A stretch of DNA of 38,947 bases, from the IMG/VR virus record IMGVR_UViG_3300047462_000130, positions 1-38,947 of that record; one strand, written 5' to 3'. The DNA comes from a virus. This document shows, piece after piece, positions 4,589-35,136 of the stretch. Positions within the stretch are counted from its first letter, which is position 1. Each line of letters starts with the position of its first letter. Made by a program: the position numbers and the translations under genes. The notes beneath the pieces are model-generated. The model had not been told where the DNA came from. It did not search any database and was given only the letters and a program-made list of their open reading frames with translations.

Positions 4589-4839
4589 TACCGCAAGTCG
4601 CCAGGCAGCGTGGATCTGCCAATCCGGTGGTTGAGGGTGTCGAGCTCGTTGGTCAGCCATCGCACGCGCTCGCGGGAGAGGCTCGTGTGCATGCGCATCT
4701 CATCGACGATGTTCGAGATCTGGTGGCGCGCTGCCTCGAGCGAGTTGGCCGCGCGTTCGAGCGCATCCAGCATGGACTTGGTGTCACTGATGTCGATCCC
4801 GAGCTTTTTGGCGCGCTCGACCAGGCCGGTTTCCGTCAC
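4588..4839 (-). CDS. Coiled-coil protein in lysis cassette
   Basis: An 83-residue protein, helical and charged throughout (SMLDALERAANSLEAARHQI, then SRERVRWLTNELDTLNHRIG), with no membrane segment. It starts at GTG 4839 by GTGA overlap and lies between a holin-like gene and the spanins. It might be a lysis regulator or a small structural protein. No family is recognised. Confidence 0.6.
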   Translation of the reverse strand: MTETGLVERAKKLGIDISDTKSMLDALERAANSLEAARHQISNIVDEMRMHTSLSRERVRWLTNELDTLNHRIGRSTLPGDLR

Positions 4840-5111
4840 GGTGCAGATCCTTTCACGAGTAGCGCGACGATCACGCCGGCGACGATTTCAATGGCGGCGA
4901 CCACCACCACCCCGCGTACCAGCCAAACTAGCCCATCGACGCGCTCGGTCAACACCTTGAGGTCCGTCATCTGGTCTCTCTGGCGCTCGAGCTGTGCGGC
5001 CATCTTATTGATGTTCTCGGTGAGCGCACGGCGTTTGTCGGCCGCTGCCTCGCGCAGCACCAGTGCTTTCAAATCGCGCACTGTGTCGGTGTATTCGTTG
5101 CGCCGGGTCAC
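4836..5111 (-). CDS. XhlA-like lysis accessory membrane protein
   Basis: A 91-residue protein: a coiled-coil N-terminal part (ALTENINKMAAQLERQRD), then one C-terminal membrane segment (GVVVVAAIEIVAGVIVALLV) and a short basic tail. This topology, cytoplasmic coiled coil plus C-terminal anchor, is that of XhlA-type proteins, which work with a holin in several phages. The GTG start at 5111 overlaps the holin stop. The sequence likeness to XhlA is by pattern only. It could instead be an antiholin. Confidence 0.5.
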   Translation of the reverse strand: MTRRNEYTDTVRDLKALVLREAAADKRRALTENINKMAAQLERQRDQMTDLKVLTERVDGLVWLVRGVVVVAAIEIVAGVIVALLVKGSAP

Positions 5112-5329
5112 GGCGCACTCTGATGCTGGTCGTTGTAGTGCCCGATCGCCGCAACTAGCGCGCCAAGTGCGCACATCGGCCAGTGCTGGCCCCCGAGAAG
5201 GCCCACCTGGAAGGCGCCCACGATCACGCCCAGGTAGCCTGAGATTTTGGTGCGGTTGTGCCACAGGATCAGCCAAAACGCACGAGTTCTGCCAGGCGCT
5301 TTGCCCTCGTTCCCACTTCCGTCGCCCAT
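5108..5329 (-). CDS. Class II-like holin
   Basis: A 73-residue protein with two predicted membrane segments, about residues 29-46 (ISGYLGVIVGAFQVGLLGG) and 48-64 (PMCALGALVAAIGHY), a charged N-terminus and a short polar tail: the size and layout of a two-segment holin that opens the inner membrane to the lysozyme. ATG at 5329 lies within the lysozyme gene, so the genes overlap by 61 bases. It is placed directly after the lysozyme and before the accessory membrane protein and spanins. Confidence 0.7.
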   Translation of the reverse strand: MGDGSGNEGKAPGRTRAFWLILWHNRTKISGYLGVIVGAFQVGLLGGQHWPMCALGALVAAIGHYNDQHQSAP

Positions 5330-5736
5330 GGCTGCGATGACTCCAGGTTGTCGGCGGCAGCCGCGAACTGCCCAGCCTTCATCTGGGCGAGGAAGTTCGG
5401 CCACTTGGCCTCGAAGCGCGCAGGGTTGCCGAGGCCGACATTGAAGTACAGGGTATAGATCACCGTCTGGCGTGCGGGGGTGAGAAGCGTGATCCATGGC
5501 AGGCCCGGAGCGAGATCCGCCTCACATTGTGCGAGGTCGTTGGAGAGCATCTGCTCCGACTCGGCCGGGGAGAGCCCGCGGCCGGCTAAGTTGCGCCCGA
5601 CCCCGATGGTAGGGTTTCCCTGTACGAGGGTTCCCGGACCGATGGGGCGCCCGGTGGCATCGTCGTAGACCTTGAGCTTGATCCCCTCATCGCCGTGCAG
5701 TTCGGCGCGCAGCTGCTGCTCCGTGAGCGGGTTCAC
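5269..5736 (-). CDS. T4-type lysozyme endolysin (GH24)
   Basis: A 155-residue muramidase that cuts peptidoglycan. The GH24 triad is visible: Glu17 in HGDEGIKLKVY, Asp26 in DDATG and Thr43 in PTIGVGRNL. The C-terminal helices include LTPARQTVIYTLYFNVG. There is no signal or signal-anchor segment, so it needs a holin for export. The family is normally 145-165 residues. The start is GTG at 5736, overlapping the stop of the preceding small membrane protein gene (GTGA). Confidence 0.9.
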   Translation of the reverse strand: MNPLTEQQLRAELHGDEGIKLKVYDDATGRPIGPGTLVQGNPTIGVGRNLAGRGLSPAESEQMLSNDLAQCEADLAPGLPWITLLTPARQTVIYTLYFNVGLGNPARFEAKWPNFLAQMKAGQFAAAADNLESSQPWATEVGTRAKRLAELVRFG

Positions 5737-5915
5737 AGAGTGCGGACGAGGTGCCCGAGCAGGCCGCCCAAGGCGAGGCCCGCGAGGCCGGCCAGCAGCG
5801 GTAGGTGTTTCTCGTACCAGGTCTTCGCCTGGGCCTCGAGCGCCGTCACGCGCGCTTCCAAGGTCACGGTCTCGGTGACAACAGCGGCTTTGACTTCGTT
5901 GATGGGGCTGGCCAT
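5733..5915 (-). CDS. Small coiled-coil protein with C-terminal membrane segment
   Basis: A 60-residue protein: MASPINEVKAAVVTETVTLE, a heptad-like helix (ARVTALEAQAKTWYEKH), then a Leu/Gly-rich membrane segment (LPLLAGLAGLALGGLLGHLV). ATG at 5915 has GAGGAG six bases upstream. The topology repeats that of the gene at 4836-5111, so it may be a pinholin, antiholin or lysis accessory. It directly precedes the lysozyme gene. Confidence 0.65.
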   Translation of the reverse strand: MASPINEVKAAVVTETVTLEARVTALEAQAKTWYEKHLPLLAGLAGLALGGLLGHLVRTL

Positions 5916-5931
5916 GGGTGACTCCTCGGGT

Positions 5932-8547
5932 TTAGTAGACGAATCCCGCGCCGCTCGCCTTATGCTTCGACAGCGCGGAGTACTGCAGGGTGAAGGGCAC
6001 AGCGCCCGTGTTGTTGACGGTGATGTGGGTGCTCCCGCCGGCCCCATTCGCCGTGATGGTGTAGGTCACCGCGCCCGGCGAGGACACCGCTCCCAACGTC
6101 GTGATGGTGCCGTTGACGCCCGGAATCACCGTAAACGAGCGCCGATCGTACGTCCCGTTGGTGCCATCATTGAGGTAGAACGAGATCTCGCCCTGCCACA
6201 CCTGTCCGGCCGCGAGCACACACACATCCTGCGACGCGCCGTTCCCTACGGTGAAAATGGAGGCGCCATCGAAGCGCGCGCGCTCCAGGTCCGCGCCCCA
6301 GCCGAGCGCTGCAAAGCCGTCCGCCTGGATGTTGGCGGTCGCGGTCGCGGACACCTTGATCGCCGGCGCACTCGCGCCCAGCACCGGACCCGATTGCTCG
6401 GCGTAGCAGTTGATCAACTTCATGCCGGAGCCGCTGAAAATCGCGGCGCCGGGGGCGACGAAGATCGCGTTTGGCAAAGGCTGGAAATTCGGATCGCCGT
6501 TCCAGCCGTTGGTGAACTTCACCACATCGAAGGTCCAGGTGTCGCAGCCGTTGCCGGCGATGGCATCGAAATAAAGCGCGGTGCCGCCCGCCTGGCGCTG
6601 CGACGGGCTGCCGGTGACGCAGGTGGTCCATTTGCACTCGTTGGCGAACGAGCCGGCCGCCGGGTTGACGTAGATCGTGTGCCGCCCGGCGTTGATCGAC
6701 TGCACCACTTCGAACATGCCCTGCTGCACGAACGAGGAGGCGCCGGGGGTAATCGAAATGCCGTCGCGCTGCGCGTTGTGGATATCGACGTTTCTCACCA
6801 TCGGGGCTTCAAAGCCGCCGATCACCAGGGCATCGCGCCCGGCGAAACAGCAATCAACGGAAATGTCCTTGAGCACCGCGGCATCGGCCGAGCCCGCGGC
6901 TCCCAAGAGGATGCAGTCAGTCGCCGCATTGTTGATGCAAAGCGCGATGGTAGGACGGCCCTGCAGACCTTCCCAGCGGTGCGCCGTGGTGTTGATCGTC
7001 CCGCCGATCACCGCCTGGCCGGTCATCAGATAGATGCTCGGTCCGGTGAACGAGAGCGTGCCGTTGATGCTGTACAGGTTGTAGTTCACGCTCGATCCCA
7101 AGGACGCGCCCTGGGAGCCGACCAGCGCGTTCGCCGCATTGATCGGGATGGTGTCATCGGCGCCGAAGTAGTAGGTCAACGGGATTGCTGCGGTGAGCGG
7201 TCCGCTCGCGAAGGTCTGAGAGATCGACACCTTGTACGTGCCGGTGCTGCCGGCCGCGCCGGTCAGCTGATAGAGGATCGTGGTACCGCCCGCCGCCCCG
7301 GTGATGGTCTGCCCCGGCAGCAGGGTGCCGCTCGCGATCGCGGTCACGGTCATGGTGGTCGAGGCGGGGCCGATCGAGGCGGTGAAGGCACAGGTCGAGG
7401 CCCAGGGGGGCGCCACGTTTAAGGTGACGGCGGTGCCCGACACATAGCCTTGGATGGTGTTCAGGGACGTCGGAAAGGTGGTGTAGGGGGGCGCAACAAT
7501 GAAGATCACCTTGCCCACATCGGCCGCGACGAAGGCGGCGTTGGCATCGCTGAACGCGGTCCCGAGCATGGTGCCGTTGTTGCCGCGCTTGCCGTTGCCC
7601 AAGGCGCCGAACCATTCCGGGTAGATCGCCGGGGCGCGGATCTTGCCCGCGATGGTGCCCCCGGCGCTCTGATCAAAGATCTTCCACAGGCCGGCGTACA
7701 CCGGCGCGTTGATCGTAATGGTGATGCCGGCGGCGGGTTTCAAAATGGCGAGCGAGTCGAAAAAGAGCGGCACGTTGAGCACGAGGTTCGAGTTCACGAG
7801 ATATGTGCCCGGAGGGATGTAGAGCGCCGCTCCGATGCTGTTCGCGGTGGTCAGGAACGCCGCATTGTTGGTCGCCCCATCGCCCACCGCGCCAAAGCGC
7901 CGGATATCCTCACCGCGCCACGGTGCTTTGTCATAGCTGGTGGGCACCACGCCGGCGGCCGCCTCCGCCGCGGTCTGCGGGTACAGAATGCCGCCGATCA
8001 CCTGCTGCGTCAGCACGTCATAGAGCAGTTGCCAAACCGTGCCGGTCCACTCGAATTGGTAGATGCCGCCCGCCACCAGGCTCCCCGGCGGCAGCGCGCC
8101 ACCGCCCGGAATCTGGATCGACTGGTTGCCGGTGGCGTTCAGGTTCAGAGTGGAGGCGCCCGCGTTGCTGTTGCCGATCACCAGGGTCACTTTCAGGTTT
8201 GGGTACAGCGAGGCCGGGTAGGCCGCGTTGGTGAGCACGTAGGCGTTCGCGATGCCGCTGTCGGTACCGACCACGAAGCCCATGGGGTCGAGCATCTGCA
8301 CCGGGCTTTTGGTCTTGTAGACGGTCGCCTTGTACGAGTAGGTCAGCGTGTAGGCGCCGTCCGGCACGTAAAAACTCACCTGCCCGGTGATGTCCGACAT
8401 CACGGTCGAGGCGGCGATCGGGCTCGCGGTGCCGTTGGTGTTGTAGATGGTCGCGAGGCCGCCTCCCGGATAATTGGTGACGGTGACGGTGGCGCCGAGC
8501 AGGGAGTTGCCGGAATCGTCGGTCAGGGTCTCGAAATACTGCAGCAT
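5932..8547 (-). CDS. Tailspike with pectate-lyase-like beta-helix
   Basis: An 871-residue protein from ATG at 8547 (AGGAA upstream). The N-terminal 90 residues form a beta domain (LTDDSGNSLLGATVTVTNYP) probably attaching it to the tail. At about residue 215 comes GEDIRRFGAVGDGATNNAAF with IPPGTYLVNS soon after, the hallmark opening of pectate-lyase-3-like phage spikes. Repeated short beta strands follow, as expected for a right-handed beta-helix that binds and often cuts surface polysaccharide. The C-terminal 130 residues look like a separate beta domain. Catalytic residues cannot be picked out by eye. Confidence 0.8.
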   Translation of the reverse strand: MLQYFETLTDDSGNSLLGATVTVTNYPGGGLATIYNTNGTASPIAASTVMSDITGQVSFYVPDGAYTLTYSYKATVYKTKSPVQMLDPMGFVVGTDSGIANAYVLTNAAYPASLYPNLKVTLVIGNSNAGASTLNLNATGNQSIQIPGGGALPPGSLVAGGIYQFEWTGTVWQLLYDVLTQQVIGGILYPQTAAEAAAGVVPTSYDKAPWRGEDIRRFGAVGDGATNNAAFLTTANSIGAALYIPPGTYLVNSNLVLNVPLFFDSLAILKPAAGITITINAPVYAGLWKIFDQSAGGTIAGKIRAPAIYPEWFGALGNGKRGNNGTMLGTAFSDANAAFVAADVGKVIFIVAPPYTTFPTSLNTIQGYVSGTAVTLNVAPPWASTCAFTASIGPASTTMTVTAIASGTLLPGQTITGAAGGTTILYQLTGAAGSTGTYKVSISQTFASGPLTAAIPLTYYFGADDTIPINAANALVGSQGASLGSSVNYNLYSINGTLSFTGPSIYLMTGQAVIGGTINTTAHRWEGLQGRPTIALCINNAATDCILLGAAGSADAAVLKDISVDCCFAGRDALVIGGFEAPMVRNVDIHNAQRDGISITPGASSFVQQGMFEVVQSINAGRHTIYVNPAAGSFANECKWTTCVTGSPSQRQAGGTALYFDAIAGNGCDTWTFDVVKFTNGWNGDPNFQPLPNAIFVAPGAAIFSGSGMKLINCYAEQSGPVLGASAPAIKVSATATANIQADGFAALGWGADLERARFDGASIFTVGNGASQDVCVLAAGQVWQGEISFYLNDGTNGTYDRRSFTVIPGVNGTITTLGAVSSPGAVTYTITANGAGGSTHITVNNTGAVPFTLQYSALSKHKASGAGFVY

Positions 8548-14939: not shown

Positions 14940-15425
14940 TTACTCTCCCCACCAAGCGGTGAAATACCGCTCCACTTCGATCATCTGACGGCCCTCGACG
15001 AACAGCACCGCCGCGTCCTTGTGCAGTTTGGAGCCGTAGAACGCGCGCTGCACGCCGCGCCGGCGGCCTTCGTGCTCGACGGCGTCAAAGAGCTGCATCG
15101 AGATCATGTCGCGCTCGACCGCCTGCAGGCTGTCGCCGTCGCGGTAGTCCGGATCCAACCAGAAAATGTCCATCTGCAACGTGAGACAGGTCCGGTAATG
15201 CAGACCGGGGGCGATGAAACCGACGAAGTAGGCGACGATCGCGCCCGCATCGCGCAGCACCACGCACAGCACCTCACCGCGCCGATCGCGCTCGAGATAC
15301 ACCTCGTACTGGGGATCGAGCGGCACGCGTTCCCGGTCGAGCGCGAGCTCGTGCCAGTGCGGATCGAAGAACGGTTTCAGCTCCTCGAGGTTGTCGACCA
15401 GACGCTCGACGTGGGCGGTGATCAT
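14940..15425 (-). CDS. GNAT-like acetyltransferase
   Basis: A 161-residue protein: a strand-helix start, then LCVVLRDAGAIVAYFVGFIA and MDIFWLDPDYRDGDSLQAVE, followed by the helix and AFYGSKLHKDAA of a GNAT fold. GNAT enzymes move an acetyl group from acetyl-CoA to an amine. In short-tailed phages similar proteins lie beside neck genes and their target is unknown. The Gly-rich acetyl-CoA loop is not canonical (DYRDGDS where R/QxxGxG/A is expected), so activity is uncertain. ATGA overlap with the hydroxylase gene suggests the pair is made together. Confidence 0.6.
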   Translation of the reverse strand: MITAHVERLVDNLEELKPFFDPHWHELALDRERVPLDPQYEVYLERDRRGEVLCVVLRDAGAIVAYFVGFIAPGLHYRTCLTLQMDIFWLDPDYRDGDSLQAVERDMISMQLFDAVEHEGRRRGVQRAFYGSKLHKDAAVLFVEGRQMIEVERYFTAWWGE

Positions 15426-16015
15426 GGGGTCACCGGCTTCGTCGGCAGTTCGCCCTTCACGGCAGGGCGCGAGCTGTGGATGTCGACGATCAGGTGCAGG
15501 CGATCGTCGGGTGAGTTGTTGATGACCTCGTGCTCCATCGCGTTGTTGAACCACCAGGCTTCGCCCGTCGCCATGCCGAGCTGTTCTTCGCCGCAGCGGA
15601 ACAGCACCCCGGGCTGGCTGTGCAGCACGTAGTGGTAGCGGCTGTAGTAAGCGCAGTGCGCGGGCGTGTCGACGTGCGGGTAGATCACGCCGCCCGGGCG
15701 GATCTTGTTGATCATCACCCGGCCGAGCCTCTCACCCTCGACCGTCGCCATCAGGTTGAACACCAGCGGCCGCCAGGCCGAGAGCGCAATCGCCCCATCC
15801 ATCCACACGCACTCGTGCTGGTCGCGGGCATCGCGCTCGATCTCGGTGACGGAGGCCGGCGGGAAATGGATAAAAATGGTCTCGACGTCCTCGAACGGCC
15901 CTTGCGGGTAATCGCGCAAATACGTGTCCGCTTTCCACAGGAGGGGCGCGCGGGCGATCTGCGCCATTAGCGGGGTCATGTTCAGGCCCTGGGCCAAGCG
16001 GAAAAAGTTTTTCAT
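15422..16015 (-). CDS. Aspartyl/asparaginyl beta-hydroxylase-like dioxygenase
   Basis: A 197-residue protein with the iron site of Fe(II)/2-oxoglutarate oxygenases: His114 and Asp116 in IYPHVDTPAH, His162 in AMEHEVINNS and the 2-oxoglutarate Arg172 in DDRLHLIVDIH. The order and spacing fit the aspartyl/asparaginyl hydroxylase family, which hydroxylates protein side chains and related acids. Its neighbours are a GNAT gene (overlap ATGA) and neck proteins, so a virion protein is a plausible substrate. ATG at 16015 makes the ATGA overlap; the frame is open upstream without a better start. Confidence 0.8.
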   Translation of the reverse strand: MKNFFRLAQGLNMTPLMAQIARAPLLWKADTYLRDYPQGPFEDVETIFIHFPPASVTEIERDARDQHECVWMDGAIALSAWRPLVFNLMATVEGERLGRVMINKIRPGGVIYPHVDTPAHCAYYSRYHYVLHSQPGVLFRCGEEQLGMATGEAWWFNNAMEHEVINNSPDDRLHLIVDIHSSRPAVKGELPTKPVTP

Positions 16016-16260
16016 ACCGGGGCTCCAGCGGCGTTGTGCCAGACGATGGTGGGACTGATCGCGTTCACCCACACCGGGTACCCCAGGGTGGTGTCGTACC
16101 AGAACTGCCCGATGTAGAGATTAGTGGTCGGTCGAGCGGTGGTGGGCCCCGAGCTCGAGGTCGCCTGCAGGATCTTCTGCACGGTCGAGAACCAACCCGA
16201 CCACATGGGCTTGGTGAGATCGAGCGGCGGGGTGGGCTGGGCGCCCAGCGGGGTGGTCAT
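16012..16260 (-). CDS. Small neck/tail-associated protein
   Basis: An 82-residue protein: MTTPLGAQPTPPLDLTKPMW, then a short helix (GWFSTVQKILQAT) and a C-terminal beta motif NLYIGQFWYDTTLGYPVWVN. That YIGQ..fDTTLG.P.W pattern ends many phage proteins next to neck and fibre genes, where it packs as a small beta module. It overlaps both neighbours by four bases. The exact role is unknown. Confidence 0.6.
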   Translation of the reverse strand: MTTPLGAQPTPPLDLTKPMWSGWFSTVQKILQATSSSGPTTARPTTNLYIGQFWYDTTLGYPVWVNAISPTIVWHNAAGAPV

Positions 16261-17745: not shown

Positions 17746-18810
17746 TCATGGGGAATAGGGGCTCTCTGCGTTCGGCTCGAAGAACACATCGGTCGTGTTC
17801 GGATCCGCTTGCTTCGCGATCGCCAGGGCGTCCTGGTAGTTCTGCTCCATGGTTTGGGTCCATTCACAGTCGAACATCGGCGCGATCTGCTTGCCGTGGC
17901 CGAGCACCAGGGGTGCGTACCACTGCTGCGGATAGTCGGGCGCATCGCCGGGGTTCACCAGATCCTGGGTGGGAGAGAGGTACACGCAGTGCAGGTGCTT
18001 GGTCACGTCCTGGGCGCCGGCGACGTCGAGGTAGAAGAGCCCGTTGGGTTGCTGGTTCGTGAACTGACTCTCGTACAGGTACGCTGTCGGATCCGCGATG
18101 TTCGTCGGCGCGGTCTTGGTCGGCAGGCTTTCATAGCGCTCCGTGGTCATGTAGTTCATCGGCGTGTCGTTGTTGTAGATGTCCCTGAGCACGCAGCTGA
18201 CGATCGCGAGCGGCCGCACCCCCTTGGTGGTGTAGTTCCACACGTAGGAGACGCCCGAGGCCGGCACCGCTCCGGAGAGCCCCGGCGCGGCGATCGTCAT
18301 GGTCGGCGGCGAGGGCACCGGGTTCAACGCCGTGATGGTGGTCCAGTAAGTATCCGCGCCGATCAGGATTCCCACATAGTCGCCGATGTTCATCTGCGCG
18401 ACCGAGGCGACCGGAATCACGGTGGCGCCGGCGGCGACGGTGCTCGCTACGTTGGTCTGGCCGTACAGCTGCGGATAGGCGAGGCCGGTGGTCGAGGCCA
18501 CCCAGTTGTCGCCGAGCTGCCCCAGGTTGTAGGCGTACTTGGTGTAGCCCAGGAAGAGCTCGGCGCGTTTGCGGGTCCAGATCTTCAGGCCGGGCGCAAA
18601 GTCGGTGTTGCCCATCCACTGTTTGACCATCAAATTCAGCTTGAAGCTGCAGTCCGAGTACTCCTGCGCCGTCAGGTTCTCCTGCGGATCGATGGCGCCG
18701 ATGTCGATGGCGGCGGCCCGGATGATTTGCGCCTGGGTGACCGAAAACGTGTACACCCCGGAGGTCGACGGGGTGTTGGCGGTGAACAGGTTGAGGTTGA
18801 GCGCGGTCAT
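17746..18810 (-). CDS. P22 gp4-like tail adaptor with extra beta domain
   Basis: A 354-residue protein. The first 65 residues (TQAQIIRAAAIDIGAIDPQE, then SDCSFKLNLMVKQWM) correspond to the helical start of P22 gp4, the ring that binds the portal. P22 gp4 has 166 residues; here a beta-rich segment at about 110-200 (VIPVASVAQMNIGDYVGILI) is inserted before the helical C-terminus (DCEWTQTMEQNYQDALAIA). Position between portal-side genes and the gp10-like gene supports the call. ATG at 18810 overlaps the previous stop. Confidence 0.65.
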   Translation of the reverse strand: MTALNLNLFTANTPSTSGVYTFSVTQAQIIRAAAIDIGAIDPQENLTAQEYSDCSFKLNLMVKQWMGNTDFAPGLKIWTRKRAELFLGYTKYAYNLGQLGDNWVASTTGLAYPQLYGQTNVASTVAAGATVIPVASVAQMNIGDYVGILIGADTYWTTITALNPVPSPPTMTIAAPGLSGAVPASGVSYVWNYTTKGVRPLAIVSCVLRDIYNNDTPMNYMTTERYESLPTKTAPTNIADPTAYLYESQFTNQQPNGLFYLDVAGAQDVTKHLHCVYLSPTQDLVNPGDAPDYPQQWYAPLVLGHGKQIAPMFDCEWTQTMEQNYQDALAIAKQADPNTTDVFFEPNAESPYSP

Positions 18811-20474
18811 GCCAGGTGCGGATTGGCGCGCTCGGTGTTGATCGTGGTGTAGATGGCGTCGCGGATCGCATGCCAGGCCGCTTCCCCGTCGATGTCCGCC
18901 TGGCACTGCGCGATGCCCCGCTCCGGGTGCTGCCGGCAGAACTCCCAGCTGTAATGCAGCATGTGGCAGGCCGGCGCCTCGTTGGCGCCGCGGCCGGGGC
19001 AGTGCGTGTTCTCGGAGGCGATCGAGGTGGTGTTCACCCAATCCCGGCACAGGTTTTCTTCCGTGCTATGGGATAAAAACAGCACCTTCGGCTGCGGCAG
19101 CTGGCTCATGGCGTTCATCACGCCGGTTTCCGGGCCGATGCCGACGTCCACCACCTCGAGTAGGCTCATGGTTTCGCGGATCCCGTACTTGCCGCTCTTG
19201 CAGTGCACCCGGCGCTCGTTCTCCCAGCCCTGTTCGAGGATCGCCGCATCGGCGCCGCCGACGAACACCACGTGTGACCCGGGAAACTCGGTCAGGATGG
19301 ACGCCACCGTGCGATCCAGGCCGTCCCAGGTCTTGTGGACCGAGGAGCCGGCGAGAGCCCACAGTACCAGCGGTGCCCCACCCAACCGCGCCCGTTCGGC
19401 TTTCGCCCAGGCGCGTTCCGACTCGCGCGTGTGGAATTTCACCTGCGGGCGGTGGGGGATGTCGGCGATCAGGTGGCTGAACTCCACGTAGTTGTGGTTC
19501 ATGTAGCGGTGCCGCGCCGCCGGCGACCACAGGTGCGGCGTTTTGCCGGGGATGCAGAGCAGCGAGCCTTCCACGGACTCGCTCAGCTGCACCCACTTGT
19601 CGTACTTGCGGCGGTGGTAGGCCCAATAATCGCCCAGCATGTGATTGGGGACCTGGTCCTTGTCCTGCAGGTAAAAGGCGTCGATGTTCGGGTCGAACTC
19701 GATCACCGTGTGCGCCGGCGGGCTGGTCATCAGCGTTACGTGGAAGCCCTGCGCTTTGAGGCCCGCGCACACGCTCGAGGTCTGCAGCAAGTCGCCGAAC
19801 GCGCCGTAGCGCACCACGCAGGCGGTCTTCTTCGGTTTGTCCTTCTGCCAGCTGAAGTGACACGCCGAGCGGCGCTTCTGGAACACGAAAAAGAGCGAGT
19901 ACTCGATGCCCTCGTTGCGCTTTTGGAAGTCGACCAGGTCCCAACCGTGGCCGGTCTTCTTCATGAGCTCGACCACCTTGTCGTAGCTCACGTTCCAGCA
20001 GTGATCCGGGTTCGCGCCAGGCTCCCCCACCTTCGGATAGTCATCCTCGTCCGGCACATAGAGCACCAGGTAGCCGTCGTTTTTGAGGACCCGCAGCCAC
20101 TCCTTCAGGGCCTCCAAGGCAGTGTGCTTCTCGATGATCATCTTCTCGGCGAGGGCGCGCTGAATGGGGTCCGGAAAGGTGCGCGGATCGGTGCGCTCGA
20201 GCGGAATGTGTTCGAGCAGGTGGGAGCTGAACACGAAGTCCATCGAGCCGGAGGCAAACATCGGCAGATCCGCGGCGCTCTCGACCCACACGTCGGCGTT
20301 GACCGCCTGGCCGAAGAGCTGCCGGTCCTTGCCGTTGTCGACGCCGATGAAGTGCGGGTAGGTCTTCTGCAGGCCGCAGCCGAGATCCAATCCGCGGCCG
20401 CGGGTCCATTTCGTGATCTCCCACTTGATCTTTCCCGACTCGTTGCCGAGCGGCCCGTCGATCTTCCACACCAT
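18807..20474 (-). CDS. Methyltransferase-GT9 glycosyltransferase fusion
   Basis: A 555-residue two-domain enzyme. Residues about 1-200 are a class I SAM methyltransferase: GLDLGCG (28-34), GVDN after the next strand, and DFVFSSHLLEHI. Residues about 215-555 are family 9 glycosyltransferase, the heptosyltransferase family: ACVVRYGAFGDLLQTSSVC at its start, LVLWALAGSSVHKTW in the middle, and VDVGIGPETGVMNAMSQLPQ near the end. WaaC-type enzymes have His in the last motif (DTGxxH); here it is Asn, so donor and activity are unproven. The fusion, in a capsid-to-neck gene run and in a genome with heptose-activating enzymes, suggests a sugar-modification role. ATG follows GGGGAC. Confidence 0.85.
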   Translation of the reverse strand: MVWKIDGPLGNESGKIKWEITKWTRGRGLDLGCGLQKTYPHFIGVDNGKDRQLFGQAVNADVWVESAADLPMFASGSMDFVFSSHLLEHIPLERTDPRTFPDPIQRALAEKMIIEKHTALEALKEWLRVLKNDGYLVLYVPDEDDYPKVGEPGANPDHCWNVSYDKVVELMKKTGHGWDLVDFQKRNEGIEYSLFFVFQKRRSACHFSWQKDKPKKTACVVRYGAFGDLLQTSSVCAGLKAQGFHVTLMTSPPAHTVIEFDPNIDAFYLQDKDQVPNHMLGDYWAYHRRKYDKWVQLSESVEGSLLCIPGKTPHLWSPAARHRYMNHNYVEFSHLIADIPHRPQVKFHTRESERAWAKAERARLGGAPLVLWALAGSSVHKTWDGLDRTVASILTEFPGSHVVFVGGADAAILEQGWENERRVHCKSGKYGIRETMSLLEVVDVGIGPETGVMNAMSQLPQPKVLFLSHSTEENLCRDWVNTTSIASENTHCPGRGANEAPACHMLHYSWEFCRQHPERGIAQCQADIDGEAAWHAIRDAIYTTINTERANPHLA

Positions 20475-20477
20475 CGG

Positions 20478-21032
20478 TCAGTCCCCTTTGAGTTTTTCCA
20501 CGTAGCACTTCTCGGCGCGGTGCAATCGCACATGGCCTTGGCGTACCGTTTCATCGACCGCGCGGGTGGCGCCGCCCAGGCACTCGTAGTCGTCCAGCCA
20601 GATCATCCCGCCGGGGACCATGCGCAGCAGCAGGTAATCGAGGGCGTCCCGATAGCTTTGGTACTGATCGCAGTCGAGGTGCACAAACGCCACCGGTTCC
20701 ATGTCGAGCGCCGATTCCGGAAATACTCCCTCGATCACCAGGGCGGTGGGGATGTCCATGCGCACATGAGCGGCACTGGTGTCCTTGAAGTCCCCGACCA
20801 GGTGGCTGTCGCCGGCGGCCCGATCCGCGTAGGGGATGCCGGTGAAGGTGTCGTAGAGGTACAGCGTGCGGCCTTGCAGCTCGGCAGTCTTCGCCAGGTG
20901 CCAGGCGGTGCCGCCGTGGTAGACGCCGACTTCGACGAAACAGCCGGCCGGGGTCTTGGCGGCCAGTGCGCACAGCGCCGCGGCGACCTCGCGACTCACC
21001 AGAGAATGCGGTGGCGAGGCGCGCCCGACCAT
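20478..21032 (-). CDS. TylF/MycF-like O-methyltransferase
   Basis: A 184-residue SAM methyltransferase. Motif I is FVEVGVYHGGTAWHLAK (32-48); then LYLYDTFTGIP, VIEGVFPES and VAFVHLDCDQYQSYRDAL with Asp120 and Asp122, and GGMIWLDDYE with Asp147/148. This order is the TylF (macrocin O-methyltransferase) family, metal-dependent enzymes that methylate sugar hydroxyls in antibiotics and capsules. The neighbour is the methyltransferase-GT9 fusion, three bases on, so a methylated glycan is a reasonable inference. GGGAG precedes ATG at 21032. Confidence 0.85.
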   Translation of the reverse strand: MVGRASPPHSLVSREVAAALCALAAKTPAGCFVEVGVYHGGTAWHLAKTAELQGRTLYLYDTFTGIPYADRAAGDSHLVGDFKDTSAAHVRMDIPTALVIEGVFPESALDMEPVAFVHLDCDQYQSYRDALDYLLLRMVPGGMIWLDDYECLGGATRAVDETVRQGHVRLHRAEKCYVEKLKGD

Positions 21033-21050: not shown

Positions 21051-21482
21051 TTAAGCGGCCTGGACGATGCGCGGCCGCACCACGCCGACCAGTTTCGGGT
21101 TGAACGCCTTGGGGCTGCCCTTCGGCTCATCGCGCAGGTACTTGCGGTCGCGGCCGAACTGGTGCCCGCCCTGCACGAACGCCACCTCCGAGTCGCCGAC
21201 CACGATGCCGTGCGGCTCGGACTCTTCGAAGATCGGCTCACCGTCCTCGTTCCGGGGCGTCTGATTCGGCTCCGGCGCCCGCGGTTTGGCGCGCAAACTC
21301 GCCAGCTCCCGGTCGATCGCCTCGAGGCGCGCCTTCAGCAGCGTATTCTCGGCCGCTAAATCGTCCTTCTCGGCCAACGCCTCGGCGAGCTCGCCCGACT
21401 GGTCGACCAAAGCCAAGGGTCCTTGTCCGCTCGGCGTGGCGGCCGTCTGCGGGGCTTTGGCGGGGGGTGCCTTGTCGGCCAT
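21051..21482 (-). CDS. Coiled-coil structural protein
   Basis: A 143-residue protein: a Pro/Ala-rich N-terminus, one strong coiled coil (ELAEALAEKDDLAAENTLLK, continuing LEAIDRELASLRAK), and a C-terminal conserved-looking section SEPHGIVVGDSEVAFVQGGH with YLRDEPKGSPKAF. It follows the decoration-type proteins and precedes the sugar enzymes. It could be a head fibre or a scaffold for them. No family is recognised. Confidence 0.6.
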   Translation of the reverse strand: MADKAPPAKAPQTAATPSGQGPLALVDQSGELAEALAEKDDLAAENTLLKARLEAIDRELASLRAKPRAPEPNQTPRNEDGEPIFEESEPHGIVVGDSEVAFVQGGHQFGRDRKYLRDEPKGSPKAFNPKLVGVVRPRIVQAA

Positions 21483-21492
21483 GGACGGTCTC

Positions 21493-21891
21493 CTAGTCCC
21501 AGAGGGTGTTGTAGAGGCCCGCGGCGGTGCCGGTCATGATCACCACCAGGGTTCCTAAGAAGCGTACACCAACGCCTCCCGGGCCGGGAGCGATGACCTG
21601 GTCGGCGGCGGTGCCGGCGAGGCTCGCGGCCAGCGTGTTGGTGGTGGTCGCGGTGCCGGTGACGATCAGATCGTAGGCGGCGTAGCTCGAGGTGCCGGTC
21701 GAGAGCACGGTGGCCCCGAGGAAGATCCCGCCCGGGGTGGAGCGGCCGGTGGTGATGGTCTGGGTGCCGACCGTGGAGATCGGCGTGTAGTTGGCGACGT
21801 TCGAGGCGCCGTTCGCGCCGGTGACGTTGTCCAGGCCGACCATGCCGGAGGGCGCCTGCAGGTTCGGGATCGGGTACGGCGGGCCGGCCAT
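21493..21891 (-). CDS. Small beta-rich virion protein
   Basis: A 132-residue protein rich in Thr, Gly, Ser and Val with no charged helices, MAGPPYPIPNLQAPSGMVGL at the start and VVIMTGTAAGLYNTLWD at the end. The composition is like the two decoration-type paralogues upstream (22645-23773) but I cannot align it with them. Probably a capsid surface or decoration protein. It begins one base after the preceding stop. Confidence 0.6.
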   Translation of the reverse strand: MAGPPYPIPNLQAPSGMVGLDNVTGANGASNVANYTPISTVGTQTITTGRSTPGGIFLGATVLSTGTSSYAAYDLIVTGTATTTNTLAASLAGTAADQVIAPGPGGVGVRFLGTLVVIMTGTAAGLYNTLWD

Positions 21892-22317
21892 CTACATTCG
21901 GTCCAGCATGTTGTTGCGCTCGACAAAGCCTTCCACGCCGTCGACCTCGACGGTGTCGTAGAAGGCGTCGTTGTGTTCGCGCGTGTACTGATCGTCGGTC
22001 GGGCGCAGCGGCTTCCTGTCAAAGCCCTCTTTCAGGGACCGCACCGTCACATCGTCGGTGACTTGGGTGCCTGAGCCGAGCGCGCCGGCCATCGGCTGAT
22101 CGTGGATATCGGTGATCTCCTGATCGGCGATGTTCATGCCGGGGGGCAGCATGTTCAGGCGAGCGCCGCGCTTCTGGTAGCGGCCGAGCTCCGGACAGCG
22201 GGTGATGAGGCCGTTGTTGTCGCGCGCGCTCTTGTCGCTCACCCAGCCCGAGTGCGCGTCATCGTTCGGGTTCGCCGGCGCGTTGACCTGAAACTTTTCC
22301 TGAACGATCTTGGACAT
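21892..22317 (-). CDS. Unknown head protein with LPPGM motif
   Basis: A 141-residue protein, polar, with an internal LNMLPPGMNIADQEITDI that closely matches FNYLPPGMDIEDQMNADI in the gene just upstream (22352-22633), so the two are partial paralogues or share an assembly motif. The C-terminal part is acidic (YTREHNDAFYDTVEVDGVEG). It lies among genes directly after the major capsid protein, so it is probably a virion component. Function unknown. Confidence 0.6.
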   Translation of the reverse strand: MSKIVQEKFQVNAPANPNDDAHSGWVSDKSARDNNGLITRCPELGRYQKRGARLNMLPPGMNIADQEITDIHDQPMAGALGSGTQVTDDVTVRSLKEGFDRKPLRPTDDQYTREHNDAFYDTVEVDGVEGFVERNNMLDRM

Positions 22318-22332
22318 GCGAGAGGCTCTGAG

Positions 22333-22350
22333 AAGTATCCGGCGATACTT
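22333..22350. terminator. Perfect 7-bp hairpin between head genes
   Basis: AAGTATC, loop CGGC, GATACTT, immediately beyond the stop of the gene ending at 22352 and before the start at 22317. In the leftward direction no T tract follows, so it may be a weak terminator or an RNA-processing or stability element adjusting expression after the capsid genes. Confidence 0.45.
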
Positions 22351-22351
22351 T

Positions 22352-22633
22352 TCAGGTCCAGCCGTCGCCCGGGTAGCTGATGCCGCCCTTGTAGTTGATC
22401 ATCGTCTCGGAGCGGATGTCGGCGTTCATCTGATCCTCGATGTCCATGCCGGGGGGCAGGTAGTTGAAGTCCGCCTTGAGGCCCGAGGGCGTGCCTTTCT
22501 TGTCGAGGTAGCCCTGGTCCGTGATGCCGACCATTTCGTTGCCGGCCATCTTCTCGGACGTCGGCAGCACGCCCACGTCGGGGCGCTTCGACTTTTGCTC
22601 CTTGACGATCATGCCGGGGAAGGTTTTGTTCAT
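22352..22633 (-). CDS. Small head protein with LPPGM motif
   Basis: A 93-residue protein from ATG at 22633: MNKTFPGMIVKEQKSKRPDV, then EKMAGNEMVGITDQGYLDKK and the FNYLPPGMDIEDQ motif shared with the next gene. The DNA around the shared motif is also similar (the GGGGGGCAG tract), which suggests duplication. Polar, without membrane segments. Probably structural because of its place in the head module. Confidence 0.6.
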   Translation of the reverse strand: MNKTFPGMIVKEQKSKRPDVGVLPTSEKMAGNEMVGITDQGYLDKKGTPSGLKADFNYLPPGMDIEDQMNADIRSETMINYKGGISYPGDGWT

Positions 22634-22644
22634 CGCCTTGACTC

Positions 22645-23145
22645 CTACGCCACAACGGCGCCAAACGGATAATTCTGATAGTCGACCGTCATCGCGGTGA
22701 CCGCGGTCGCATCGGTCCCCGAGACCACATAGATCATCGCACCCGAGTTTACCAGCAGGCCGCCCTGGCCCGCGGTGCCGGCGGTGGTGTTGATGGCCCA
22801 CTGGTTGCCCCCGCCAACCTGGGCCGCCGTGCCTTGGCCACCCGCCAAGAACGGGCCGATGGTGGTCGTCGACATCGCCACCGTGGTCGTGGTCGAGGTG
22901 TTGGTCACAATGATGACCGAGAGCTGCTGACCGCTCGCCGTGCCGGTGCCGGTCGCGGTGCCGTTGACCGTTTGGGTGTAGGTCGAGGTGCCGAGGGTCA
23001 CCGTCTGCGTGGTGAGCCCAAAGATCAGCATGCTGGTGAAGGCGACGAACTTCGAGGTCTGGCCGCCGGAGCCCGCCGCCACGGAGCCGAAGTTGATGTC
23101 CCCGCGGGCACCATTGACCGCGGGGTTTTGGACGATCAGAGCCAT
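22645..23145 (-). CDS. Thr-rich capsid decoration-type protein
   Basis: A 166-residue protein, strongly rich in Thr, Gly and Ser (GTATGTGTASGQQLSVIIVT, then NTSTTTTVAMSTTT), beta-type. It is a paralogue of the gene upstream: FVAFTSMLIFGLTTQTV against FIAWTNMVLWGVSFSTA, GTSTYT then TVNGT in both, and GTDATA near both C-termini. Tandem Ig-like or jelly-roll proteins after the capsid gene are usually decoration proteins. The Ser/Thr-rich runs would be natural acceptors for the glycosyltransferase encoded nearby; that is inference. Confidence 0.7.
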   Translation of the reverse strand: MALIVQNPAVNGARGDINFGSVAAGSGGQTSKFVAFTSMLIFGLTTQTVTLGTSTYTQTVNGTATGTGTASGQQLSVIIVTNTSTTTTVAMSTTTIGPFLAGGQGTAAQVGGGNQWAINTTAGTAGQGGLLVNSGAMIYVVSGTDATAVTAMTVDYQNYPFGAVVA

Positions 23146-23155
23146 AGCAGCCTCC

Positions 23156-23773
23156 TTACGCGGTCACCACGCCCACCACCGGCGCGATCGACAGGTGCAG
23201 CGTCGCGATGAAGGTCGCGGTCGCATCGGTGCCGTTCTGCACGTACACCTGGTCCCCGATGTTCAACGGTAGCCCGCCAATGCCGGCGGCCCCCATGGGG
23301 TTGTTGGGGGCGGTGAAGGTCTGGGTCCCCCACGGCATGGTGGTGTTGGTCCCGCCCAAGGTGTTGCAGGCGTAAGGCCCGGAGGCGCCGTTCGCGATGT
23401 TCGGGCTGTAGCCGATGATGTTCGGCTGCGCCACGGTGTTCAGCGCGGTGCCGGCGATGACCGCGAAGTTCGCGACCGTCTGGGTGCTCATCGACACCGC
23501 CGTGCCGGTGGTGTTGGTGTTGGTGATGTACACCAGGGAGGCCGCATAGGCGGGGTTGAGCTGCGTCCCGTTCACCGTGTAGGTCGAGGTGCCGGCGACC
23601 GCGGTCGAGAACGACACGCCCCACAGCACCATGTTGGTCCAGGCGATGAACTTCGCTGGCGCTCCGGGCAAGCCGGCCGCGCCGGCGGCCGTCACGCCCT
23701 GTTGGATGGGCACCCGCACCAAGGCGTTCGGCTGATCGTAGGAGACCGAGCGAATCGTGTTTGCCTGAGCCAT
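23156..23773 (-). CDS. Capsid decoration-type protein, paralogue
   Basis: A 205-residue beta-rich protein, MAQANTIRSVSYDQPNALVR at the start. It aligns with the next gene over residues about 40-75 and near the C-terminus (VQNGTDATATFIATLHLS). It follows the major capsid protein after a hairpin and has a strong ribosome site (GAGGAG) eight bases before ATG at 23773. The second copy is shorter, so the two may occupy different capsid sites. Confidence 0.7.
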   Translation of the reverse strand: MAQANTIRSVSYDQPNALVRVPIQQGVTAAGAAGLPGAPAKFIAWTNMVLWGVSFSTAVAGTSTYTVNGTQLNPAYAASLVYITNTNTTGTAVSMSTQTVANFAVIAGTALNTVAQPNIIGYSPNIANGASGPYACNTLGGTNTTMPWGTQTFTAPNNPMGAAGIGGLPLNIGDQVYVQNGTDATATFIATLHLSIAPVVGVVTA

Positions 23774-23862: not shown

Positions 23863-24852
23863 TTAAGCCGCGCTGTCCCACTTCACGATGCGGGTGTTGA
23901 TGGCGATCGTGTGCACGATGCCGTAGCCGCCGAGGTAGTACCAGGCGATGCCCTTGCTGCGCCCGAAGTCGGTCGGGATCTTGCCGCGCATCTCCTCCGG
24001 GACCGCGATGCCCTCGGCCACCGTGTCGTTGCCGAAGAAGAAGATCCAGTCCGACTGGCCGTTGGTCCACTGCACCATGTCGCCGCCGGAGGCCGTGGCA
24101 ATGCCCGTGCTGCCGATGCCCTTGGCGATGTTGGTCTGCTCGATGTACCGCACGTTCTCGTAGCGGCCGATCTCCCCGTTCATGATGAGGTTGAAACCGG
24201 TGTCCGAGTACTGGTGGATGCCCTCGAGGGTGTTCTTGAAGGTGCGCAGCGTGGTCGGCCAGGCCAGGCTGTAGTAGTCGTCCGCGATGTAGGCGGGGAT
24301 GTTCCGCTCCTTCATCGCATCGACCACCGCCTTGGCGTGGGCGTTGCTGTACGCCACCGAGTTGGTGCCCGTCACGGTGCCGTTGGTGTAGAGCGTGATC
24401 GCCGAGGCCGAGGTGCCGCCGACCGGGATCACGCGAATCAGGGTCTGGTTGAACTGGCCCCACACCATGCGATCCAGGGTCTTGACCGTGTCGTTCTTCA
24501 GGCCCTTTTGGATGATATCCTGGACCGGGAACTTGGAGAGGTTGTCGAGCTTGCCGGAGTACGGAATGCTGTTGCCGGCCTCGGTGATGGTGAGAGTGCC
24601 CTGGGTGATCGTCAGGTTGGTCTCGGGCATGGTGTTCGTTTCGATGAGAACCGCGCCGACCTGCGCCACATCCGACACCACGTCCCAGGTGAAGGTGTCG
24701 CCCTTCTTCTTGCCCTGCTGGCTGATGTCGTGGACATCGGCGAACTGGCGAAACTTGACCAGGGGCTGCACGTTCATGCGCAGGACGTTGGAGAGCTGGC
24801 GGGCATAGAAATAGCCGCCGAGCGTGTTGACCGACCAGACTTGACCTGCCAT
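23863..24852 (-). CDS. Major capsid protein
   Basis: A 329-residue protein. ATG at 24852 is chosen for GGGAG six bases before it; the frame also opens seven codons upstream. The sequence resembles N4-gp56-type HK97-fold capsid proteins: GDTFTWDV (51-58), a central helix with TLDRMVWGQFNQTLIRV, NLIMNGEIGRYENVRYIEQT and a C-terminal RGKIPTDFGRSKGIAWYYLG. It follows the scaffold gene and precedes decoration-type genes, the normal order. Two short pieces of this gene are echoed in small genes at 29141-30176. Confidence 0.85.
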   Translation of the reverse strand: MAGQVWSVNTLGGYFYARQLSNVLRMNVQPLVKFRQFADVHDISQQGKKKGDTFTWDVVSDVAQVGAVLIETNTMPETNLTITQGTLTITEAGNSIPYSGKLDNLSKFPVQDIIQKGLKNDTVKTLDRMVWGQFNQTLIRVIPVGGTSASAITLYTNGTVTGTNSVAYSNAHAKAVVDAMKERNIPAYIADDYYSLAWPTTLRTFKNTLEGIHQYSDTGFNLIMNGEIGRYENVRYIEQTNIAKGIGSTGIATASGGDMVQWTNGQSDWIFFFGNDTVAEGIAVPEEMRGKIPTDFGRSKGIAWYYLGGYGIVHTIAINTRIVKWDSAA

Positions 24853-24894
24853 GTGTGACTCCCATCGAGTCACCGCGTGGCTGGTGATGACTCG

Positions 24895-32319: not shown

Positions 32320-32725
32320 CTCGACCCAGGTCTTTATCAGGGCGGGGATCGGCACGATCGGCAGCAATTCTCTTGAGGCGGTCGTAGTAGGCGCCCAAGA
32401 GTTCGGGCTCGGCGGCGACGGCGATGCCAACGGGCTTGCCGCCGGGTCCGGCAATCTCATGGCTCACCGTCTCGCGCCAGCCCATCTGCGTGGCGGTCCA
32501 CCACTTGACCATCGAGGGCACGCCTTTGCGCGCCTCGGCGAAGGCCACGCCGGCGACCGTGAAGCACGCCTTGGCCTTGCCCATATCGAGCTGCACGCGG
32601 TAGCGCTTCCTCAAGGTTTTCACGGACTTGACCCCGATCAGCACCGCAATCATCTCGTGCGGCATGCCGATCCCCGAGGCGTTCTCGACGGTCTTGCGGC
32701 TCTCCTCGGTGACCTGGTGTGTCAC
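32267..32725 (-). CDS. terS: Terminase small subunit
   Basis: A 152-residue protein directly before and overlapping the large subunit. MTHQVTEESRKTVENASGIG, then a helix-turn-helix-like PHEMIAVLIGVKSVKTLRKR, a central helix and a charged Pro/Asp-rich tail (DPRPDKDLGRDGPRGDGPDS). Small terminases bind the packaging site and regulate the motor. The identification relies on position, size and the N-terminal DNA-binding pattern. Confidence 0.75.
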   Translation of the reverse strand: MTHQVTEESRKTVENASGIGMPHEMIAVLIGVKSVKTLRKRYRVQLDMGKAKACFTVAGVAFAEARKGVPSMVKWWTATQMGWRETVSHEIAGPGGKPVGIAVAAEPELLGAYYDRLKRIAADRADPRPDKDLGRDGPRGDGPDSSEDAEPR

Positions 32726-33219
32726 GCGCCCTCATGGGTATGGGTACTTTTGGTCGCCTCCGCAAAGGTCAGGTCGCTCACGTGCTTCGCCTTTTTGCCC
32801 GTGTAGTCCTGCCACCGCTCGATGATCACGTCCGCGTAGTGCGGGTCTAACTCCATGATGCGGCAGCGCCGGTTCAGCTTCTCCGCCGTGATGAGGGTGG
32901 TGCCGGAACCGCCGAAGGGGTCGAACACGAGATCGGTCTCCTGCGAGCTCGCCCCCATCATGCGCTCGACCAGCGCCACCGGCTTCATGGTCGGGTGCAT
33001 CTCGCTTTTGGACGGCCGCGGCTCGCGCAGCACCGTGGAGCGCTGCGCGGCGATGGCCTTCTTGAGCAGCGCACGGCATTCGTCCGCTTTGAGCTTATCG
33101 ACGTTCACATCGTCATCGATCACCGTGGTCTGGGTGTAGTCGCCGGCGAAGTAGTGCCCGGCGCCTTCCTTCCAGCCGTACAGGATCGGCTCGTGCTGCC
33201 AGTTGTAGTCCTGGCGGCC
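32722..33219 (-). pseudogene. C-terminal remnant of DNA methyltransferase
   Basis: About 165 codons. From 33219 the frame gives GRQDYNWQHEPILYGWKEGA, HYFAGDYTQTT, then MHPTMKPVALVERMM and LVFDPFGGSGTTLITAEKLN, ELDPHYADVIIERWQDYTG. This is the second half of a beta-class adenine/cytosine-N4 methyltransferase, with the SAM motif FGGSGTT at the C-terminal side. The first half, with the catalytic (D/S/N)PP(Y/W), is missing upstream; in its place is a coiled-coil frame in another phase. ATG at 33123 could start a 133-residue fragment, but without the catalytic motif it should not methylate. Confidence 0.8.
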
Positions 33220-33314
33220 TTTTTCTCCAACGACTCGAGCCGCTCCTTGAGCAGCACGTTCTCATCCCACAGCTGTTTGTACGTGATCTTCGGGACAGTC
33301 TTTTTCTTGGTCAT
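33120..33314 (-). CDS. Chimeric coiled-coil ORF joined to methyltransferase
   Basis: A 64-residue frame, MTKKKTVPKITYKQLWDENV, LLKERLESLEKKAA, then Thr/Arg/Ser-rich out-of-phase reading of the methyltransferase DNA. The first 34 codons look like a real coiled-coil start. At 33220-33224 the minus strand has GAAAAAG: a -1 slip there would join LESLEKK directly to GRQDYNWQHEP of the methyltransferase. Either a deletion fused two genes out of frame, one A is missing from the assembly, or a programmed slip makes the fusion. No strong ribosome site is visible. Confidence 0.5.
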   Translation of the reverse strand: MTKKKTVPKITYKQLWDENVLLKERLESLEKKAARTTTGSTSRSCTAGRKAPGTTSPATTPRPR

Positions 33315-33482
33315 CGATGCTCGCGGGCCCCTGATCGGGGAAATTCGCGGTGGTTTTAGGTCTATCGGCGGCAGAGCCCAAGGCTTCGTTGAAGTCCCTC
33401 GAGGCTCGTTGCCGAGCCCCGAGGGGAAATTCAACGCCTGGGATGCAGCCTCTGGTGCTGCGGCGTTGAATGTGAGGTGCGG
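33315..33482 (-). ncRNA. Structured intergenic RNA with alternative stems
   Basis: The only sizeable gap inside the leftward operon. In the leftward RNA, TTCAACGCC (33470-33462) can pair with GGCGTTGAA (33438-33430), with an inner GCAGC/GCTGC stem. Alternatively TTGAA at the same place pairs with the later TTCAACG (33393-33387), enclosing CCCTCG/CGAGGG and GGCTCG-GCAA-CGAGCC, a stem capped by a GNRA tetraloop. The two folds share one strand, as in attenuators and riboswitches. No U tract follows. It lies before the terminase genes, so it might control entry into the packaging and head genes, or be a remnant of a mobile RNA. Confidence 0.6.
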
Positions 33483-33707
33483 CTAATCAAGCTGGGCCCG
33501 GTAGCCGTTGTAGGCGGTGCGCTGGGCGTAGGCATCGCGCTTGGTGTACATGGCGAGGCGGTTCGGCATGTCGCTGTTGCCGCGGTGTTCGATGGTGGCG
33601 TCCAGGTCGTAGTCCCCGGTCAGGTTCGGCACGTCGTGCCAGTCCTTCGGTGCGCACGTGGTGTGGCAGCCGCGGTGACCCATCGCCGTCATTTCGGTTT
33701 TCGTCAT
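33483..33707 (-). CDS. Small unknown protein
   Basis: A 74-residue protein, MTKTEMTAMGHRGCHTTCAP at the start and a conserved-looking Asp/Tyr/Arg-rich middle (VPNLTGDYDLDATIEHRGNS), ending in Tyr/Arg-rich sequence (YTKRDAYAQRTAYNGYRAQL). It overlaps the adenylyltransferase gene by four bases. No family is recognised. It is the last gene before the structured gap. Confidence 0.6.
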   Translation of the reverse strand: MTKTEMTAMGHRGCHTTCAPKDWHDVPNLTGDYDLDATIEHRGNSDMPNRLAMYTKRDAYAQRTAYNGYRAQLD

Positions 33708-34171
33708 GGTGGCGCAGTTTTATGCTCTGCGGGCTCTTTTTGCAAGCCGGAACGCTCGATTTCTGTACTGGTCGAATATCCAGGCAGGCGTGGGATGTAC
33801 ACGATCGGGATCACTTCGAAGCCGTGTCCTTCGGTCTTCCAGCCGATCTTGCGGAACCCTAAGCGGCTGTCCCCGGTCCTGTCCACCGGCCGGTACTCCT
33901 CGCCCTGGAACACCACCTGCGGGCGCATCTCAAGCACCAGTTTGTCCCAGCGGCCCTCGAACGGGATGACCGCGGAGGCAATGGTGCGCACGAACTTCAT
34001 GCGCCTCCCCCAGGTCCAGATCGGCCGGCCGGCGCCCTTCACCTCGGCGCAATAGCGGTCGGAATTGAGGGCCACGACCAGGTAGTCGCAGCCTTTCAGG
34101 CACTGCCGCAGGTAATGATCGTGGCCTGGGTGGAAGACGTCAAAGCAGCCGTTGGCGAAGCCGATCCTCAC
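33704..34171 (-). CDS. Heptose-1-phosphate adenylyltransferase-like (HldE C-terminal half)
   Basis: A 155-residue nucleotidyltransferase. Its start MRIGFANGCFDVFHPGHDHY carries the HxGH motif (HPGH at 14-17), followed by LVVALNSDRY and VKGAGRPI, matching the E. coli HldE C-terminal domain (TNGVFDILHAGHVSYL, VAVNSD, LKGDSRPV). Near the end, PGYSTSTEIER parallels GCSTTNIIKK. HldE-C turns heptose-1-phosphate and ATP into ADP-heptose. GTG at 34171 makes a GTGA overlap. It lies four genes after a kinase like the other half of HldE. A glycerol-3-phosphate or other cytidylyltransferase role is possible. Confidence 0.8.
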   Translation of the reverse strand: MRIGFANGCFDVFHPGHDHYLRQCLKGCDYLVVALNSDRYCAEVKGAGRPIWTWGRRMKFVRTIASAVIPFEGRWDKLVLEMRPQVVFQGEEYRPVDRTGDSRLGFRKIGWKTEGHGFEVIPIVYIPRLPGYSTSTEIERSGLQKEPAEHKTAPP

Positions 34172-35061: not shown

Positions 35062-35136
35062 CTACTTCCCTCGGTTTTTGCGCCGGTAGGCGCCGTTGTG
35101 GATCAGGCGCTCGTGGCCCCAGGACTTCTCGATCAC
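35062..35136 (-). CDS. Very small basic peptide gene
   Basis: A 24-residue frame from GTG at 35136, which overlaps the kinase stop (GTGA): MIEKSWGHERLIHNGAYRRK and NRGK, ending two bases before the next start. The coupling and exact fit between genes support it, but a peptide this short needs proteomic evidence. Confidence 0.4.
   Translation of the reverse strand: MIEKSWGHERLIHNGAYRRKNRGK

Follow-up and report, generated by a model that had tools for sequence, protein, structure and literature searches.

Cassette in the head operon

The DNA analyzed was the IMG/VR virus record IMGVR_UViG_3300047462_000130 (38,947 bases; hereafter the window), in which a first-pass annotation had described a cassette of two genes: one for a TylF-type O-methyltransferase and one joining a class I methyltransferase (MT) to a GT9-family glycosyltransferase domain (the MT-GT9 fusion). 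Both genes were borne out at 18807–21032 on the minus strand, 3 bases apart, with the ATG of the fusion at 20474 and the end of the TylF gene at 20478. The fusion stop codon was shared with the start of the neck gene in an ATGA at 18810–18807. The 3-base gap and this overlap indicated that the cassette forms an integral part of the head operon. The first-pass annotation was inexact on one point: the gene directly preceding TylF (21051–21482) is not Thr/Ser-rich, and the Thr/Ser-rich genes lie farther upstream, at 21493–23773. The genes and domains of this region are as follows.

23863–24873, minus strand: major capsid protein, candidate acceptor (phrog_1357, E = 1.2e-15; capsid alignment)
23156–23773, minus strand: Thr/Ser-rich "decoration-type" protein, predicted all-beta, candidate acceptor (family distribution; AlphaFold pLDDT 68)
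22645–23145, minus strand: Thr/Ser-rich "decoration-type" protein, candidate acceptor (family distribution among loci)
21493–21891, minus strand: Thr/Ser-rich small protein, possible virion protein
21051–21482, minus strand: small conserved head-operon protein with a KPYGE-type motif in relatives (also in cassette-free relatives)
20478–21032, minus strand: TylF-type O-methyltransferase, 184 amino acids (PF05711; PDB matches)
18807–20474, minus strand: MT-GT9 fusion, 555 amino acids (profile matches, fold, alignment; dN/dS 0.09–0.15)
19863–20474, minus strand: class I S-adenosylmethionine (SAM)-dependent methyltransferase domain, residues 1–204 (PF08241, fold, separate open reading frame in L134 and L135)
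18828–19835, minus strand: GT9-fold glycosyltransferase domain, residues 214–549 (alignment and fold)
18903–19001, minus strand: C-terminal cysteine cluster, Cys492, 503, 513, and 524 (near-invariant in the alignment of relatives)
17746–18810, minus strand: neck/head-completion adaptor, start overlapping the fusion stop (position as Ad3 of Vibrio phage 1.232.O)

The MT half of the fusion matched PF08241 above the cut-off (E = 1e-7), and the GT9 half scored 14.7 bits against PF01075 (E = 0.02), under the Pfam cut-off of 22; a PF01075 search of the window's own record accordingly gave no match, the fusion score lying below threshold. PF01075 was matched by 13 of 31 fusion relatives at E ≤ 0.1 (best, 1.6e-5), and the fusion alignment, run against solved structures, returned methyltransferases and only a weak GT9 match (3tov, E = 0.2). 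Since the window protein fell below the PF01075 cut-off, its GT9 identity rests on the predicted fold and on the relatives. In an AlphaFold model built from the 31 relatives (predicted local distance difference test, pLDDT, 87.8; predicted template modeling score, pTM, 0.84), residues 214–549 gave a VIA Z score of 24.1 with 3tov, a Veillonella GT9 enzyme, and the GT9 domain gave 22.6 with WaaF, 20.0 with TibC, and 20.0 with WaaC bearing an ADP-heptose analogue. Foldseek matched the model to GT9 structures with E = 7e-14, and residues 3–204 gave Z scores of about 16 with SAM methyltransferases. The predicted structure confirmed that the C-terminal domain has the GT9 (GT-B) fold.

Asp228 in an RYGxxGD motif, the candidate catalytic residue, and Lys381 in an HKxW motif were invariant in all 31 aligned sequences, and profile alignment and reading placed them opposite Asp110 and Lys230 of TibC. 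The fusion resembled the lipopolysaccharide (LPS) heptosyltransferases WaaC and WaaF in its fold, in the catalytic Asp of a GxxGD-type loop, and in a Lys-containing donor loop; it differed from them in its donor motif, in the fusion to a methyltransferase, and in its place in a phage head operon. The donor motif of WaaC-type enzymes is Asp-Thr-Gly-x-x-His, and bacterial GT9 proteins show VDTGLSH at this position. The window has E449-T-G-V-M-N454, with Glu449 invariant (31/31) and Asn454 near-invariant; the replacement of His by Asn, which had been noticed in the window, is hence kept among the relatives, and Glu additionally replaces Asp.

TibC transfers heptose from ADP-D,D-heptose to a protein acceptor (PMC4358343). 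The fusion shares with TibC and Aah, which are bacterial autotransporter heptosyltransferases (BAHT), the GT9-type fold (Z 20.0) and a cysteine cluster near the C-terminus, Cys492, 503, 513, and 524 sitting where TibC has its iron finger. Unlike these enzymes, it starts with a methyltransferase and has no N-terminal beta-barrel, its cysteine spacing differs, and it gave no match to TIGR04414 (BAHT) at E ≤ 0.1. As judged from sequence, the cysteine cluster supports kinship with GT9. It was also considered as evidence for a protein acceptor and dropped, because similar clusters occur in ordinary WaaF-like bacterial GT9 proteins and so do not separate a protein from a lipid acceptor.

The TylF protein matched PF05711 with E = 1.8e-16 and 60.6 bits (cut-off, 23) and carried the acidic metal-site motifs HLDCD and WLDDY. 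Its PDB matches included mycinamicin III 3''-O-methyltransferase and NovP, and its best phage matches were mostly mycobacteriophage O-methyltransferases, many of them Corndog-type.

Distribution of the fusion and of the capsid-neck interval

Relatives were gathered by a protein search (34 viral loci), by a fusion-alignment search (15 loci in bacterial assemblies), and by a capsid-alignment search (80 loci, partly in contigs already found). The bacterial assemblies were mostly of Gram-negative bacteria and included contigs of Paraburkholderia, Aromatoleum, Pseudothauera, and Nevskia, and a tblastn search of the fusion against 50,697 phage records gave no match. In 86 loci where both genes could be seen, the GT9 gene came after the capsid gene, the median distance being 2.9 kb; these are loci, some overlapping and some in bacterial chromosomes, and not independent genomes. 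Among loci recruited by the capsid search that extend 4 kb or more past the capsid gene, the GT9 gene was present there in 37 of 41. One of the four exceptions (L143) had it farther on in its record, and the other three (L092, L117, and L142), close capsid relatives with no GT9 gene within 4–6 kb downstream of the capsid gene, are possibly natural cassette-free members or have displaced cassettes.

The MT-GT9 domain order, which the first-pass annotation had proposed to look for in other phages, was present in 84 loci; the two domains were encoded by two open reading frames in L134 and L135, and six divergent loci had a GT9 gene with no methyltransferase match. The ratio of nonsynonymous to synonymous substitution rates (dN/dS) of the fusion against close relatives was 0.09–0.15, showing that it is under strong purifying selection. 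From the 84 fused relatives and this ratio, the open reading frames of the cassette are not chance ones. Four isolated phages with a capsid of this type (E. coli phages PTXU04 and Bas95; Vibrio phages 219E41.1 and 1.232.O) had no GT9 gene after the capsid gene and carried small genes in the capsid-neck interval, with an HNH nuclease in addition in 1.232.O; they form a small and more distant control, as nearly all close capsid relatives carry the cassette. The lineage appears to be a common one, consisting of widespread, barely cultured, short-genome podovirus-like phages of soil and water that infect Gram-negative bacteria.

The capsid-neck interval of the relatives also gained a GT2 glycosyltransferase (L036 and L138), an FkbM methyltransferase (L126), and TylF. 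Large fibre-like open reading frames lay between the capsid and GT9 genes in L074, L088, L103, L113, L139, and L015, one of them with a K1-lyase C-terminal domain. Between the same two genes, L033 had an island (4806–7836) with TylF, a further methyltransferase, a gene of unknown function, and an open reading frame that was GT9-like by eye and had no Pfam match.

Genes for ADP-heptose synthesis

Two HldE-like genes were located in the window 13–15 kb from the cassette:

35133–35951, minus strand: HldE domain-I-like heptose-7-phosphate kinase, compact, 272 amino acids (TIGR02198; HldA match; motifs)
33704–34171, minus strand: HldE domain-II-like heptose-1-phosphate adenylyltransferase, GTG start (TIGR02199; phrog_7878; HPGH)

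The kinase matched TIGR02198 with E = 1.4e-57 and 195 bits, under the NCBIfam equivalog cut-off of 345; its only PDB match was HldA (E = 1e-34), and it carried NxxE and GAGD motifs. From its sequence, this compact protein is a candidate heptose-7-phosphate kinase whose activity should not be assumed. The adenylyltransferase had TIGR02199 as its best match in the library (E = 1.8e-20), matched phrog_7878 (E = 2.3e-21), and carried an HPGH (HxGH) motif; its score of 73 bits was under the equivalog cut-off of 181.5, which the record of L029 passed.

Of 18 contigs of 35 kb or more that carry GT9, 10 had an HldE-type adenylyltransferase; 15 of these contigs were also scanned for an HldE-type kinase, which 7 had. 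GmhA was found in four GT9-bearing records, and GmhB was clear in four and weak in one. The weak GmhB-like gene (G004, 18802–19230; E = 7e-10) came from a record that yielded no HldE-type gene. Three records (G015, G029, and G030) held GmhA, kinase, adenylyltransferase, and GmhB, which together lead from sedoheptulose-7-phosphate to ADP-D,D-heptose; the genes formed a run in G015 and G030, and in G029 HldE was a single protein of about 470 residues. HldE genes thus occurred split, in an operon, and fused across the lineage, and the presence of the pathway required at least five changes (gains or losses) on the GT9 tree. HldD was found in none of 20 GT9-bearing records, and the adenylyltransferase in none of the four cassette-free isolates. 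Of the 50,697 phage records, 35 had a match to the HldE kinase and 76 one to the adenylyltransferase, a contrast that is indicative only, because these records were searched by tblastn and not with profiles. HldE-type ADP-heptose pathway genes have already been annotated in T4-like cyanophages; here they occur in another phage lineage and are linked to a GT9 gene of the head operon. Heptose as the donor sugar, suggested earlier from the GT9 domain, thereby gained strong independent support from the HldE-, GmhA-, and GmhB-like genes of the window and its relatives, and an ADP-heptose-type donor is likely for the GT9 enzyme.

Elsewhere in the window, 32722–33434 (minus strand) encodes only the C-terminal part (133 amino acids) of a DNA methyltransferase; the corresponding open reading frame in the relative L055 has 442 amino acids, and the remnant looks like a decayed gene.

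Candidate substrates and significance

These results are best explained by phage enzymes that add heptose, and in some cases methyl groups, to the phage's own head proteins, a reading to which we give a probability of roughly 0.55. The GT9 domain would move heptose onto one of the head proteins, with the major capsid protein and the Thr/Ser-rich proteins of the same operon as candidates, and the fused methyltransferase, together with the TylF enzyme where present, would methylate the glycan. The benefit may lie in shielding, stability, or adsorption. There is a precedent in mycobacteriophages such as Corndog, Che8, and Myrna, in which phage glycosyltransferases and a TylF-like O-methyltransferase are likewise encoded beside capsid genes; in Firecracker (gp33–36), the O-methyltransferase adjoins glycosyltransferases between the portal and capsid genes. 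Two papers state that proteins of the capsid and tail tube are modified by Corndog-type enzymes (PMC11600133 and PMC12363180, citing Freeman 2023). The mycobacteriophage systems act in actinobacterial hosts and the present lineage in Gram-negative ones; the Firecracker glycosyltransferases are annotated otherwise, for example as polypeptide N-acetylgalactosaminyltransferase, whereas the enzyme encoded here has the GT9 fold and is joined to a methyltransferase, and ADP-heptose synthesis genes also set this lineage apart.

The proposal of the first-pass annotation that the phage modifies its own virion was supported by the fixed head-operon position and by the mycobacteriophage precedent, and its "decoration" acceptors stay candidates. 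The Thr/Ser-rich family had a member in 78 of the 86 GT9 loci, and none turned up in the four isolates that lack the cassette. As a sole acceptor it was set aside and kept as a candidate only, because eight GT9 loci lacked the family. An AlphaFold model of one Thr/Ser-rich protein was all-beta and of low confidence (pLDDT 68; best Z 7.5), and its structure comparison named no family and gave no firm match. As a separate observation, an aspartyl/asparaginyl beta-hydroxylase-like gene (15422–16024, minus strand; PF05118, E = 9e-16) in the virion gene run was kept in several relatives, and its product could hydroxylate a virion protein.

Several results weigh against modification of the head. A position in the head operon is by itself no proof of a virion substrate, and no Thr/Ser-rich member was detectable in 8 of 86 GT9 loci, including L029 with its full pathway. 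The donor motif is unlike that of WaaC, with Glu449 and Asn454 replacing Asp and His. A few divergent relatives have no methyltransferase domain or a degenerate one (degenerate in L031–L033), and TylF is optional, with only some 10 of 89 loci carrying it. The window kinase lacks about 37 profile positions and evolves faster (dN/dS 0.5–0.6), and 8 of the 18 longer contigs had no HldE-type adenylyltransferase; these eight could be incomplete, or the phages could depend on their hosts.

The main rival is that the enzyme alters the LPS of the host at a late stage of infection, for example by inner-core capping, so that released virions avoid debris or superinfection of infected cells is blocked. 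ADP-heptose is the donor for the LPS core, the nearest characterized GT9 enzymes by fold include WaaF and WaaC, and the assemblies with relatives are mostly of Gram-negative bacteria. However, E. coli-type LPS core heptosyltransferases use the L,D epimer, which the absence of HldD from the 20 records does not favor, though a host could supply it. The WaaC-type Asp..His donor motif is also missing, no GtrA/B-like membrane partners were recognized near the cassette, and the GT9 gene is locked to the capsid-neck interval and not to a lysogeny or conversion locus. We therefore regard action on LPS as unlikely. It is rather improbable, too, that a head-operon protein glycosyltransferase uses another nucleotide sugar and that the HldE-type genes serve separately, for example by boosting host envelope synthesis. 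Such an enzyme would fit the donor motif unlike that of WaaC, the lack of HldE-type genes in about half of the longer carriers, and the distance of the window's own HldE genes, which are outside the head operon; yet genes of this type are very rare in phages and recur in varied forms in this lineage. That the enzyme glycosylates bases of the phage DNA and not a protein is very improbable: PMC12619734 cites virus-encoded glycosyltransferases that hypermodify DNA, but the gene sits in a late head operon, and no base-hydroxymethylation or base-precursor genes were recognized among the scanned window proteins, which did not cover every open reading frame. A fusion that is mainly a structural head component, its enzyme fold kept with no activity, would suit the location and the degenerate methyltransferase domain of L031–L033 and deserves hardly any weight given the invariant catalytic Asp and Lys, the strong purifying selection, and the co-occurring donor-synthesis genes.

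Heptosylation of the head may extend beyond the window: at slightly less than even odds, it is a core trait of this large Gram-negative podovirus-like lineage, carried out by the MT-heptosyltransferase with a repeatedly acquired ADP-D,D-heptose pathway. As far as we found, virion glycosylation by phage enzymes has been shown for tailed phages only in mycobacteriophages, and a partial literature survey found no description of heptose on phage virions. The question is directly testable, because candidate integrated copies are present in cultivable Paraburkholderia and Aromatoleum strains, at loci L037, L038, and L042 in Paraburkholderia rhynchosiae WSM 3937, Paraburkholderia sp. C35, and Aromatoleum anaerobium. 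If the proposal is true, particle glycosylation would be a core trait in another lineage besides the mycobacteriophages, one unrelated to them and apparently common, achieved with a different enzyme family and with a sugar normally tied to LPS. It would be, to our knowledge, the first known heptose-based virion glycosylation, and the trait would not be confined to phages of actinobacteria.

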